Source of the DNA: Pelagibacteraceae bacterium | Lineage (GTDB): Bacteria; Pseudomonadota; Alphaproteobacteria; Pelagibacterales; Pelagibacteraceae | Reading direction: 5' to 3' | NCBI GenBank assembly: GCA_016777565.1 | Contig: JADHRF010000003.1 | Location: 1-58,550 of the forward strand | DNA length: 58,550 bases | Part shown: positions 19,728 through 24,621 of the stretch, piece by piece | Layout: each line of letters opens with the position of its first letter | Numbering within the stretch: position 1 is the stretch's first letter | The notes under the pieces: generated by a model | What the model was told of the DNA's origin: nothing | Databases searched by the model: none | Seen by the model: the letters and a program-made list of their open reading frames with translations, nothing else | Made by a program: the position numbers and the translations under genes

Positions 19728-21065
19728 ATGTTTAAAAAAGTTTTGATTGCTAACAGAGGAGAAATCGCTGTTAGAATAATAAGAGCCTGTAAAGAATGGG
19801 GTATTAAAACAGTAGCTGTACATTCAGATGTCGACTCTGAATCAATGCACGTACGGCTTGCTGATGAGAGTGTATGTATAGGTTCTCACCAGGCTCAAAA
19901 TAGTTATTTAAATATTTCATCTTTAATGTCGGCAGTTGATTTAACTGGAGCTGAGGCAATTCATCCTGGTTATGGTTTTTTGTCAGAGAACTCAAAATTT
20001 GCAGAAATTGTTACTAAACACGGAATTAAATTTATAGGCCCAAGTTCAAAACTTATCAGTGAAATGGGAGATAAGATTCAAGCAAAAAAAATAGCCAAAA
20101 AATATGGACTTCCTGTTATTGAGGGATCTGAAAATGGAGTTAAATCTTTCGAAGAAGCCAAGTCTCTTTGTAAAGAGATAGGTTATCCAGTGCTTATCAA
20201 AGCAGCGGCAGGAGGTGGTGGTAAAGGTATGAAAATAGTTGATGAAGAAAGTAAACTAGAAAATCTTTTTTTAACTGCAAAAACTGAGGCTAAAAAATAT
20301 TTCGGTAATGACGAACTTTATATTGAAAAATATTTCAAACACCCTAGGCATATAGAAGTTCAAATAATGTCTGGTAAAAATAGAACTATACATTTGGGAG
20401 AAAGAGATTGCTCGGTTCAAAGAAGGCATCAAAAATTAATAGAAGAAACTCCCAGTCCTGTGTTAACACAAGAACAAAGAGAAGATTTGCTTAACAAAAC
20501 AGTAAAAATGGTTGAGCAAATTGGGTACGAGGGCGCTGGTACTGTCGAATTCATCTACGAAGATGGAAAATTTTATTTTTTAGAAATGAACACAAGAGTG
20601 CAAGTTGAACATCCTGTTACTGAAGTACAAACTGGGATCGATATAGTTAAAGAACAGCTTTGGATAGCATTCTCAGGGGAAACAGCTCTAAAACAAAAAG
20701 ATATTGATCCTAGAGGTCATTCAATTGAATGCAGAATAAACGCTGAAAATCCAGCTTTAAATTTTCAACCAAGCCCTGGCACAATCAGTGTTTGTCATCA
20801 ACCTTCAGGATTTAGAACTAGAGTTGATGGATCAATTTTTCAAGGGTGTAAAATTACTCCTTATTATGACAGCTTAATTGCTAAAGTAATATGTAAAGGC
20901 AGAAATAGAACTGAGGCTATTCAAAGAACATTAAGATCACTAGATGAGTTTGTTTTGGAAGGTATTACTACTACAATAGATTTACATAAAAAAATTCTTA
21001 AACACAAAAAATTTATTAATTCAGATTTTGATACTAATTGGCTTGCAAAAGAAAAATTTTTTTAA
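19728..21065 (+). CDS. accC: Acetyl-CoA carboxylase biotin carboxylase subunit
   Basis: ATP-dependent carboxylation of BCCP-biotin, 445 residues. The N-terminus FKKVLIANRGEIAVRIIRAC is diagnostic. The ATP-grasp Gly-rich loop is AAAGGGGKGMK, and the catalytic region has EKYFKHPRHIEVQIM, GERDCSVQRRHQKLIEE and EMNTRVQVEHPVTE. The length matches stand-alone AccC rather than a fused PCC/MCC alpha chain. It ends with a stop nested against the DUF2155 gene on the other strand. Confidence 0.97.
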   Translation: MFKKVLIANRGEIAVRIIRACKEWGIKTVAVHSDVDSESMHVRLADESVCIGSHQAQNSYLNISSLMSAVDLTGAEAIHPGYGFLSENSKFAEIVTKHGIKFIGPSSKLISEMGDKIQAKKIAKKYGLPVIEGSENGVKSFEEAKSLCKEIGYPVLIKAAAGGGGKGMKIVDEESKLENLFLTAKTEAKKYFGNDELYIEKYFKHPRHIEVQIMSGKNRTIHLGERDCSVQRRHQKLIEETPSPVLTQEQREDLLNKTVKMVEQIGYEGAGTVEFIYEDGKFYFLEMNTRVQVEHPVTEVQTGIDIVKEQLWIAFSGETALKQKDIDPRGHSIECRINAENPALNFQPSPGTISVCHQPSGFRTRVDGSIFQGCKITPYYDSLIAKVICKGRNRTEAIQRTLRSLDEFVLEGITTTIDLHKKILKHKKFINSDFDTNWLAKEKFF

Positions 21066-21574
21066 ACATTCTCACAACTAACAAGCCACAGATCGTAAAT
21101 TGGATGATCTAATGGATTTAAAGTTGTGCTTGAAGAAAAGGTCCATCCATTAAAGACAAATACTTGATTGCTTAAATCATCTGACAAATCCTTAACCTGA
21201 ATATAGGCTGCTTGGCCCTGCTCTGATTGAGATTGAACATTTCCACACTCAAGAACTTTTACCTCAAGTAAACCGAAATTTTTTGTCTCTCCTAAAGACA
21301 AATTTATATTTGAAGTTTTTGCTGTAATCTTATCTAATGCAACTATATTTACTTTAACTGATTTATTTTTTGTTTTAACAGACTTTTTTTCTTTTAAAAT
21401 TAAAATTTCTTTATTTAAAATATTTTTAGATTCGGTATCCTCTTTTTCAAAGCTTGGTTTTAAATTTTCAAGATTAACTAATGGAACTGTACTAATTTTT
21501 TCCTCAGAGAATAAAAAGGTAAAAAAACTAATATAATAAAACAAAATAAATAAACTAATTTTTCCAAGTTTCAT
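21062..21574 (-). CDS. DUF2155 secreted protein
   Basis: A 170-residue protein with an N-terminal hydrophobic signal (LFILFYYISFFTFLFSEE). A charged linker is followed by the conserved DUF2155 domain from about res 85: ITAKTSNINLSLGETKNFGLLEVKVLECG and the end VFNGWTFSSSTTLNPLDHPIYDLWLVSCEN. It carries two conserved cysteines. The molecular function is unknown. It is adjacent to and overlaps the NDUFA12-like gene by 20 bp, a pairing common in alphaproteobacteria, so a link to complex I or envelope biology has been guessed but is unproven. Confidence 0.85.
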   Translation of the reverse strand: MKLGKISLFILFYYISFFTFLFSEEKISTVPLVNLENLKPSFEKEDTESKNILNKEILILKEKKSVKTKNKSVKVNIVALDKITAKTSNINLSLGETKNFGLLEVKVLECGNVQSQSEQGQAAYIQVKDLSDDLSNQVFVFNGWTFSSSTTLNPLDHPIYDLWLVSCENV

Positions 21575-21914
21575 ATTTTTTTTTTATGTTTTTTCTTTTA
21601 GATATTTGATTTGGTTTATAAGCATTTGACGAGCCAGACTGATTTTCTAAATGTTCTTTCTGCCACAGATATTTCTTGTTTTGTATTTTAGGTATTTCAT
21701 TGACCGTATGATGCATCCAAAGAAACCACTCAGAAGTTATTTGTGATGCTTCGATATTATTATTATAAACAACCCATCTTTGATCGTTTTTACTCTTATA
21801 ATATTTATTTCCGTATGAGTCTTTTCCAACAAATCTTCCAAAAAATAATGTTTTTAAAAATGTTCCAAAAGTTTGTTTGTGCCACCAGGTAAAAATTTGC
21901 TTTGGGTTAATCAT
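21555..21914 (-). CDS. NDUFA12/B17.2-like NADH:ubiquinone oxidoreductase subunit
   Basis: A 119-residue homologue of the mitochondrial complex I accessory subunit NDUFA12 (17.2 kDa). The start at MINPKQIFTWWHKQ is preferred over the track Met five residues upstream. Characteristic segments are GTFLKTLFFGRFVGKDSYGNKYY, then RRW-type RWVVYNNNIEASQITSEWFLWMHHTVNEIP. The C-terminal tail includes the QKEHLENQSGSSNAYKP region seen in alphaproteobacterial members. It is encoded away from any nuo genes. In mitochondria this subunit stabilises the peripheral arm; the role here is inferred. Confidence 0.88.
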   Translation of the reverse strand: MINPKQIFTWWHKQTFGTFLKTLFFGRFVGKDSYGNKYYKSKNDQRWVVYNNNIEASQITSEWFLWMHHTVNEIPKIQNKKYLWQKEHLENQSGSSNAYKPNQISKRKNIKKKYETWKN

Positions 21915-22007
21915 AAAACATCCACACAATTTAAGAGTGTATATTAAGTTCTAGACACTTACTATATTTGTTATATATCTTCAATTATTGATTCCTAAAA
22001 TATTAAT

Positions 22008-22841
22008 ATGAAAAAATTTATAGTCGAAACCTATTATACCTGCACATTTAAAACTGTACATACGCTTGACGAATTAAACGATGTTGAATTATCTAAAATT
22101 GATAGCAGAAAAGATGGAGAGGTTGAGGTTATTGATGTTAGGCTCAACAATCGAAAAACTAAAAAAATCGGCGATAAAAGTCAATCAAAAGAAAAAGAAG
22201 TAAAAAGTACAGATGATGTTTCAAACCTGATTGCAAACAAAATAATAAATCCAAAAGATACAAGCGCTAATAATATTAATTTAAATAATAATAATAAAGT
22301 TAAGGGTCAAGTAGAGAAGAGATTCAGAATGCCTGATAGAAGAAAAGGTTACATTCAGAAAGCACAGATTGGTAATCACAAAGTTTATTTACACACGGGT
22401 GAATATAACGATGGAAAAATTGGGGAAATTTTTATTGATACCAACAAAGAAGGAGAACTTGTCAAAGCTATGATGAATAATTTTGCGATAGCTATATCAT
22501 TGGGGCTACAATACGGAGTACCACTAGATGAATATGTAGATGCTTTTATAGATACCAAATTTGAACCATCGGGTAATGTTGACGGTAATGATAGAATTCT
22601 AAGCGCTACTTCAATACTCGATTATGTTTTTAGAGAACTAGCTATTTCTTATTTAGGTAGAGAGGAACTGGCTCACACACCTTCTATTGCGAGTACAAAA
22701 GATATTAACGATGGTGAAGCTGATGATAAATTTCTAAAAATTGTAAAAAATATTACCTCTAAGGGTTTTATTAGAAGTAATTATGAGGAAAAACTTGTAG
22801 ATTTAAGTGACATAAGAATTAATCTAAAATCTAAGAATTAA
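22008..22841 (+). CDS. Orphan protein equivalent to the C-terminal domain of B12-dependent ribonucleotide reductase
   Basis: A 277-residue protein. Residues about 105-222 closely follow the C-terminal region of class II (NrdJ-type) ribonucleotide reductases of alphaproteobacteria: [72 protein letters not shown] and [10 protein letters not shown] (TSCPD-type domain). There is no RNR barrel, and the only cysteine seen is Cys12, so it cannot do radical chemistry itself. The N-terminal about 50 residues form a separate small domain ([14 protein letters not shown]), then a low-complexity Asn/Lys linker. Role unknown; regulatory or nucleic-acid/nucleotide binding is possible. It overlaps aspS by 11 bp tail to tail. 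Confidence 0.8.
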
Positions 22842-24621
22842 TTTTTCTATCTATCTTAATATTTAATTCTTTTAATTGCTTTTCATCCACTTCTGCTGGG
22901 GCATTCATCAAAAGATCTTGAGCATTTTGATTAAATGGGAAAAGTGTTACTTCTCTGATGTTCTTTTCACCTGCTAACAACATCACGATTCTATCTAACC
23001 CAGGTGCAATTCCACCGTGTGGAGGAGCCCCATAACTCAATGCATTTATCATTCCGCTAAATTTTTCATCTACTTGTTTTTTTTTATACCCTGCTATTTC
23101 AAATAATTTATACATTAGTTCTGGTATATGATTTCTGATAGCTCCTGATGATAGTTCAATACCGTTACAGACTATATCGTACTGGAAAGCTTTAATTTCT
23201 AGAGGTCTGTCAAAATTAATTTTATTAATATCTCCTTGAGGCATAGAAAAAGGATTGTGACTAAATTGAATTTTTTTATTTTGCTCATCAAATTCAAACA
23301 TTGGGTAGTCAACTACCCAACAAAATGCAAATTTATTTTCATCTATAAGATTTAAATCTTTTGCAATTTTATCTCTTGCTAAAGAAGAAATTTTTTCTAC
23401 TTCATTTATTTTACCACAAGCGAAAAATATACTATCGCCAACCTCTGCAGAGCTAATTTTCATTATTTCTTTCAATGCCTCTTGCTTAAAGAATTTTCCA
23501 ACTGGACCTTTTGCAGAAATTTCTTTGTTCTTTTCAAGAGTAAAATAAGCAAGGCCAGAAGCCCCCTGCTCTTTAGCCCATTTATCAATATTATCAAAAA
23601 AACTTCTTGGTTTATCTTTTGTGTTTTTAGCTATAATACATCTGACTTTAGATCCAGACTTCACTAATTTTTTGAAGATATCAAAAGTTACATCGTCTCT
23701 AGTAAAGATATTTGTTAAGTCATGGATTAATAATGGATTCCTTAAATCTGGCTTATCGGAACCATATTTTAGCATCGCATCTTTATAAGATATTCTTGGA
23801 AATTTTTTATACATTAATTCTTTAGTTGAAAAATTTGAAAATAAATTTATCATTAATTTTTCTACAGCTTCAAATACATCTTCCTGTTCAACAAAAGACA
23901 TTTCTATATCTAACTGATAAAATTCCCCTGGACTACGGTCAGCTCTGGCATCTTCATCTCTAAAACATGGTGCTATCTGAAAATATTTGTCAAATCCTGA
24001 AACCATTATTAATTGTTTAAATTGTTGAGGTGCTTGAGGAAGTGCATAAAATTTTCCAGGGTTCAATCTGCTAGGTACTAAGAAATCCCTTGCTCCTTCT
24101 GGGCTTGATGAGGTTAAAATTGGAGTTTGAAACTCTAAAAATCCAAGCTTTAACATTTCACTTCTGATAAATGAAATAACTTTTGATCTTAAAATAATAT
24201 TATTATGCATCTGGTTCCTTCTAAGATCTAAAAATCTGTATTTTAATCTAATATCCTCTGGATATTCTTGCTCCCCAAATACAGGCATTGGTAAATCTTT
24301 CGCTTCTGATAAAATTTCAATACTTTCTATATAAATTTCAATTTTTCCAGTTTTTAAGTCTTTATTCTCTGTTCCTAGCTCCCTTTTTTCAACTTTACCC
24401 AATACTTTTATTACGGACTCAGACCTAAGATTTTCTATAATTTTAAAATATTTACTCTTATGTTCGATAACACATTGCATAACACCAAAGTGATCTCTTA
24501 GATCTATAAAAAGTAAATTACCATGATCTCTTTTTCTATGAAGCCAACCAGCTAAATGTACTTTTTTACCAGAGTCGTTTTCTGTAAGTTCTGAACAATT
24601 ATGAGATCTAAATTTATTCAT
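22831..24621 (-). CDS. aspS: Aspartyl-tRNA synthetase (bacterial type)
   Basis: Class II synthetase, 596 residues. The N-terminal OB fold ([22 protein letters not shown]) precedes motif 2 ([22 protein letters not shown]). A GAD insertion domain (res about 290-410) marks the bacterial type, and motif 3 is [14 protein letters not shown] near the C-terminus. Many alphaproteobacteria use a non-discriminating AspRS with GatCAB; discrimination cannot be judged here. Its start overlaps the hdaA stop by 4 bp. Confidence 0.97.

Follow-up and report, generated by a model that had tools for sequence, protein, structure and literature searches.

A free-standing NrdJ tail without its catalytic barrel at the ancestral nrdJ locus of Pelagibacteraceae

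The locus and the anatomy of the orphan gene

We analyzed a 58,550-nucleotide stretch of DNA (the window) from contig JADHRF010000003.1 of a Pelagibacteraceae draft genome (GCA_016777565.1; 1.17 Mb, 86.5% complete, 6.75% contamination), and in particular an open reading frame (ORF) at positions 22008-22841 of the + strand, which runs from an ATG start to a TAA stop without frame damage and encodes 277 amino acids. A first-pass annotation, made from the sequence letters, had read this ORF as a free-standing C-terminal domain of the B12-dependent (class II) ribonucleotide reductase (RNR) NrdJ that lacks the catalytic barrel, has its own start and a linker, and contains one cysteine; these features were all present in the ORF, and profile searches confirmed the assignment to NrdJ. 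Positions 926-1132 of PRK07562 (the NCBIfam model of alphaproteobacterial NrdJ, with 1222 positions) align to ORF residues 64-265 (E = 6.6e-68), and the Pfam TSCPD domain (PF12637) matches residues 117-212 (E = 1.4e-11; 45 bits, cut-off 22.8). The likeness to NrdJ, previously placed at residues 105-222 or so, does cover those residues but does not end at 222, as homology continues to about residue 265. In the profile search of the ORF, parts of NrdJ other than the tail gave no match, and searches with the NrdJ model and with Pfam did not find the radical barrel with its catalytic cysteines.

The orphan gene, as we call it here, lies between an NDUFA12-like gene and aspS (Table 1). A sister family of the same order (f2) encodes full-length NrdJ (1194-1203 amino acids) in the gene order accB-accC-DUF2155-NDUFA12-nrdJ-aspS, and the orphan occupies the nrdJ slot of this order, with NDUFA12 and aspS on its two sides. 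As the slot is shared with the nrdJ of the sister family, the orphan is an in-place remnant of the ancestral gene rather than an acquired domain; synteny, gene content and alignment together identify it as the tail of the ancestral alphaproteobacterial NrdJ, retained where the gene originally stood. We also observed that NDUFA12 divergently adjoins nrdJ, or nrdJ remnants, across much of Alphaproteobacteria.

Table 1. Features of the orphan gene and its neighbours, in positions of the window
Feature	Position	Strand	Basis
Orphan NrdJ-tail gene, 277 aa	22008..22841	+	Profile matches, family-wide orthologues
N-terminal domain, residues 1-53, Pelagibacteraceae-specific, strand-helix-strand	22008..22166	+	Conservation, predicted structure
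Disordered linker, residues 54-102	22167..22313	+	pLDDT mostly <50, fast evolution
NrdJ tail core, residues 103-227, TSCPD domain	22314..22688	+	Pfam match, alignment, predicted structure
C-terminal segment, residues 239-277, conserved, matches NrdJ 'SKGF-R...LV' stretch	22722..22838	+	NrdJ alignment
NDUFA12-like gene, divergent neighbour, marker of ancestral nrdJ slot	21555..21929	-	Pfam/NCBIfam match, synteny
DUF2155 gene, part of conserved accB-accC-DUF2155-NDUFA12-nrdJ order	21062..21574	-	Pfam match, synteny
aspS, convergent neighbour, 11-base overlap with orphan 3' end	22831..24621	-	synteny

Compared with alphaproteobacterial NrdJ (NF005736/PRK07562), whose tail is homologous and whose slot is the same, the orphan lacks the first ~920 residues (i.e., the PF08471 N-domain and the PF02867 barrel) as well as the terminal zinc finger with six cysteines that Loderer et al. 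described (PMC5704485), which is the only part missing from its C-terminal end. The single cysteine of the protein is residue 12; a cysteine-rich zinc finger of the NrdJb type was not found in the orphan, nor was the TSCPD cysteine motif in its tail, despite the Pfam TSCPD match above the cut-off. None of the aligned orphans has a cysteine in the tail domain, and cysteine ligands for an Fe-S cluster were not found; the domain is thus not a cysteine-ligated Fe-S scaffold.

The first-pass annotation had also described the N-terminal domain as distinct, and this view was upheld, as 13 of its 53 columns are invariant across Pelagibacteraceae. All three Pelagibacteraceae (f1) genomes tested contain the domain, and the 75 other genomes searched gave no match with a meaningful E-value; nor was a stand-alone gene for it found in other alphaproteobacteria. 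The possibility that it represents a remnant of the NrdJ N-terminus or barrel received no support from hhalign or hmmsearch.

Class I and class II RNR in Pelagibacteraceae and selection on the tail

The genome from which the window derives encodes one RNR large subunit, a class I protein of 649 amino acids with the C-terminus YEECLSCQ, with one adjoining NrdB. This class I NrdA was the only barrel match in the genome, where an NrdJ barrel was not found; PF08471, the N-terminal domain of class II enzymes, was likewise not found there, while true NrdJ proteins score 131-156 bits with it. Four single-contig Pelagibacteraceae genomes, which represent two other genera, gave the same picture: all have the orphan and NrdAB, a class II barrel was not found in any of them, and the only barrels present are class I. 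Within the genus of the source genome, 30 of 37 genomes carry the orphan, the remainder having a completeness of 60-86%; every near-complete genome of the family that was tested carries it. Named loci among the matches listed were without exception (80/80) orphans of similar length in Pelagibacteraceae or Pelagibacterales records, and the nearest named relatives belong to Pelagibacteraceae (SAR11), with no more than 87% identity over the whole protein. Judged by gene content, class II catalysis is gone in Pelagibacteraceae, in agreement with the earlier suggestion of a module retained in a lineage that has abandoned B12-dependent RNR. As a separate observation on the class I enzyme of SAR11 (L004:3719-6666, G000:C15), Pfam detected no ATP-cone in NrdA or NrdB of the source genome, so that control of overall activity by dATP may be lacking or come about in another way.

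Selection on the orphan was assessed in 81 Pelagibacteraceae species by a pairwise counting method, which gave the median ratio of nonsynonymous to synonymous substitution rates (dN/dS) over pairs with dS between 0.1 and 1.5. The tail core (measured on residues 105-227), with a pairwise identity averaging 90.7% and dN/dS at a median of 0.053, was more constrained than the proteins of the neighbouring genes AspRS (73.9% identity; dN/dS 0.110) and AccC (82.2%; 0.117); the corresponding values for NDUFA12 were 60.6% and 0.278. Within the orphan itself, the N-terminal domain showed 69.8% identity and a dN/dS of 0.203, and the linker a mean identity of 19% and a dN/dS of about 1.07. These values indicate very strong purifying selection on the SAR11 tail and, along with the family-wide distribution, bear out the earlier statement that the orphan is not a recent fragment.

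Loss of the barrel in other alphaproteobacterial families

A profile of the orphan was used to search 386 genomes across Alphaproteobacteria and found the tail in 259 of them; frame lengths, which were read for most of these 259 genomes, were nearly all those of full-length proteins (about 1200 amino acids). Eight further families, however, showed shorter proteins, none of which is cut by a contig end. The shortest, in f9, have about 270-280 amino acids, keep the zinc finger and lack the N-terminal domain seen in f1; the others have 526-1055 (f26), 781-926 (f59), 663 (f90), 759-807 (f133), 912 (f138), 808 (f147) and 843-916 (f167) amino acids. Nearly all of these shortened nrdJ genes adjoin NDUFA12, and their other neighbour is mostly aspS or ridA (at the f138 locus, ridA was seen and NDUFA12 was not). 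Traces of a class II barrel are kept in some of the proteins (L225, L226 and L200) and no barrel is recognisable in others; the shortened forms look like a graded series of decay. Weak matches of the same three decayed barrels to the NCBIfam family NF005401, 'ribonucleotide reductase-like protein' (PRK06948), were also observed, and this family might hold further dead RNRs.

To compare barrel and tail, we took the near-invariant positions of 22 full-length NrdJ proteins, 438 in the barrel and 80 in the tail, and scored them in 29 orphan or decayed proteins from nine families. The latter kept between 4 and 117 of the 438 barrel positions, and most of them kept 67-78 of the 80 tail positions; in one f59 protein, 40 of the 45 tail positions covered match. 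The catalytic motifs NPCSE, CFIQ and TACN were present in all 22 full-length proteins and in none of the 29 orphan or decayed ones. Only 17 of the 29 retain the terminal zinc finger, so that the TSCPD core represents the constant part. The separation of tail from barrel thus occurs in other alphaproteobacterial families as well as in Pelagibacteraceae.

NrdB was found in all 19 barrel-less genomes of the first count in the class-wide sample, as compared to 87 of the 240 genomes whose NrdJ is full-length (P = 1.5e-8, Fisher's exact test, uncorrected for kinship), and a twentieth genome with a decayed form, G257, also has NrdB. Two genomes with decayed NrdJ carry, besides class I NrdA, an extra gene with a strong RNR barrel match (E about 1e-120; G224:C4:49139-50536 and G309:C1:1007477-1008877; L177 and L176), which may be a further B12-dependent type that lacks the tail. 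In the control genome of Caulobacter vibrioides, PF12637 matched and PF08471 did not, PF08471 having matched none of the 14 control genomes. The annotated NrdJ of Caulobacter (CCNA_01966), drawn as NrdJ beside NrdE and NrdB in a published account (PMC6538847), is, on this indirect evidence, probably another decayed form. All matches listed for a phylum-wide sample fell within Alphaproteobacteria. Tail matches were also obtained in 7 phage and 16 plasmid records, where the annotated features under the match are B12-dependent RNR.

What the retained tail may do

An AlphaFold2 model of the tail core is compact and alpha+beta (predicted local distance difference test [pLDDT] 88.6; predicted template modelling score 0.83), with the order beta-beta-beta-alpha-alpha-beta-alpha; in the model of the whole protein the linker is disordered (pLDDT mostly <50) and residues 1-53 form strand-helix-strand. 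The first-pass annotation had named an unrelated predicted fold as something that would refute it; the model gave no such refutation, although it had no significant match in the PDB.

Strong purifying selection and parallel retention in other families argue that the tail has a separable function. We consider it probable (roughly 0.6) that the orphan is an in-place nrdJ remnant whose tail has been kept as a ligand- or partner-binding module independent of class II catalysis. Under this reading, ribonucleotide reduction in an ancestor of Pelagibacteraceae passed to class I NrdAB, nrdJ lost its radical barrel along with the zinc finger at its end, and a new short N-terminal domain with a flexible linker came to stand before the TSCPD tail, as synteny, gene content and alignment show (the order of these events being our reconstruction). 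The tail would have been kept for its separable activity, most likely binding: the compact domain may recognise a partner protein or, as a conserved ligand, a nucleotide or nucleic acid, with the invariant polar residues in P-x-R-x-K...Q, GE, GE, Q-Y-G-x-P and D-Y-x-F making the contact. Intact NrdJ would contact the same ligand or partner through its tail, and the SAR11 tail would do so as a free protein.

Several results weigh against this interpretation. The tails of f26 (L198, L199, L223, L230 and L254) and f90 (L200) have themselves diverged and keep only 42-52 of the 80 tail positions, which sets them apart from the remaining decayed forms; they may be on their way out or changed in role. 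In the class-wide sample, 85 genomes with class I RNR have no detectable tail; the tail can thus be lost, which argues against a universal role. The structure gives no functional hint, as Foldseek found no PDB match at E <= 0.001 for either the whole protein or the isolated domain; the weak matches to IscU (1wfz; TM-score 0.34, E = 1.3), PUR-alpha, toxin B subunits and RNase H were not interpretable, and a PDB sequence search gave nothing meaningful. Moreover, the number of losses is uncertain: while a tree of AccC, NDUFA12 and DUF2155 gives at least 4 changes of state, its well-supported branches force only 2, and for the tail tree, in which long branches are present, an approximately unbiased test does not reject a single clade of decayed tails at the 5% level (P = 0.065).

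This last result and the small number of well-supported branches speak for a barrel-less form that arose once in antiquity and spread to other lineages by gene transfer. We regard this as very unlikely, as the tail tree gives 4-6 changes of state with one origin in 0% of bootstrap trees, nearly all decayed forms sit at the native NDUFA12 locus, and the forms differ in kind: f1 combines complete deletion with a new N-terminus, f9 lacks that domain and has the zinc finger, and elsewhere remnants of 500-1050 amino acids persist, some with recognisable barrel traces. The intact NrdJ of sister family f2, along with these differences in anatomy among f1, f9 and the other families, favors several events. 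A decaying pseudogene or neutral nrdJ fragment could account for the neutrally evolving linker and for the decayed barrels of the sister cases, but is ruled out by the conservation of the tail over 81 species, the intact frames and the presence of the orphan in each near-complete genome of the family that was tested. Equally negligible is a split class II RNR with its barrel encoded elsewhere in the genome, as known from the NrdJa and NrdJb of Pseudomonas (PMC4520616); the rest of nrdJ was searched for as a split gene, and no separate nrdJa barrel gene was found in the window genome or in the four single-contig genomes, where class I NrdA gave the sole barrel matches, and the orphan also lacks the zinc finger of NrdJb.

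The main rival, which we nevertheless consider unlikely, is that the tail acts in trans as a subunit or regulator of class I RNR. By analogy, it might dock on the NrdA barrel as Pseudomonas aeruginosa NrdJb does on NrdJa, which it binds with an apparent dissociation constant of about 260 nM, and more tightly with effector and substrate (PMC4520616), and it might control oligomeric state or activity, perhaps through dATP or dGTP; in S. nassauensis NrdJ, oligomers induced by these two nucleotides are mediated by the cysteine-rich C-terminal domain (PMC5704485). The lack of an ATP-cone detected by Pfam in NrdA and NrdB of the source genome and the presence of class I RNR in all tail-only genomes of the class-wide sample are consistent with such a role. 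The co-occurrence would be expected anyway, however, because organisms without class II need class I RNR, and the 85 tail-less genomes with class I RNR get by with no tail. Moreover, NrdA in the genomes examined ends in its own CLxC cysteine pair, and the SAR11 tail lacks the redox zinc finger and is encoded at a distance from nrdAB.

More broadly, we lean slightly towards viewing the TSCPD tail as a module with two jobs, one in the service of class II RNR and another in a cellular function unrelated to ribonucleotide reduction, so that it would have been kept while the enzyme died in several lineages, including SAR11 and probably Caulobacter. Among known systems, P. aeruginosa NrdJb (PMC4520616) is also a free-standing NrdJ C-terminal region, but the orphan has neither NrdJa nor the zinc finger and carries a new N-terminal domain. 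The IscU-like domain of class II RNR C-termini (PMC9669993) represents the same region of NrdJ with a similar order of strands and helices; the orphan lacks its cysteine ligands, however, and the weak Foldseek matches to IscU, while they agree with that published description, leave the fold match unconfirmed. For TSCPD, Pfam names a domain only, a literature search for functional work on it found none, and a 2022 survey stated that a role for this class II RNR domain was unreported (PMC9669993). While split NrdJ and the tail domain were already known, a search of the literature on orphan, truncated or pseudo-NrdJ and on SAR11 RNR found no description of free-standing or catalytically dead tails in SAR11 or other Alphaproteobacteria. 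One likely reason is that a large RNR family tree was confined to sequences with 400-1100 residues (PMC9531940), which left out both alphaproteobacterial NrdJ (~1200 residues) and the orphans (~270 residues).

That tail and enzyme have come apart naturally in one of the ocean's most abundant bacterial families, and probably also in the genetically tractable Caulobacter, makes the function of the domain directly testable. Many alphaproteobacterial proteins annotated as 'vitamin B12-dependent ribonucleotide reductase' are probably catalytically dead, which matters when a B12 requirement is inferred from genomes. For example, tails without the catalytic motifs occur in f59 (L197, L222, L244-L248 and L253), f133 (L196, L224, L251, L252 and L255) and f167 (L249 and L250); these proteins would receive the B12-dependent RNR label by best match, and a B12 dependence inferred in this way would be wrong.
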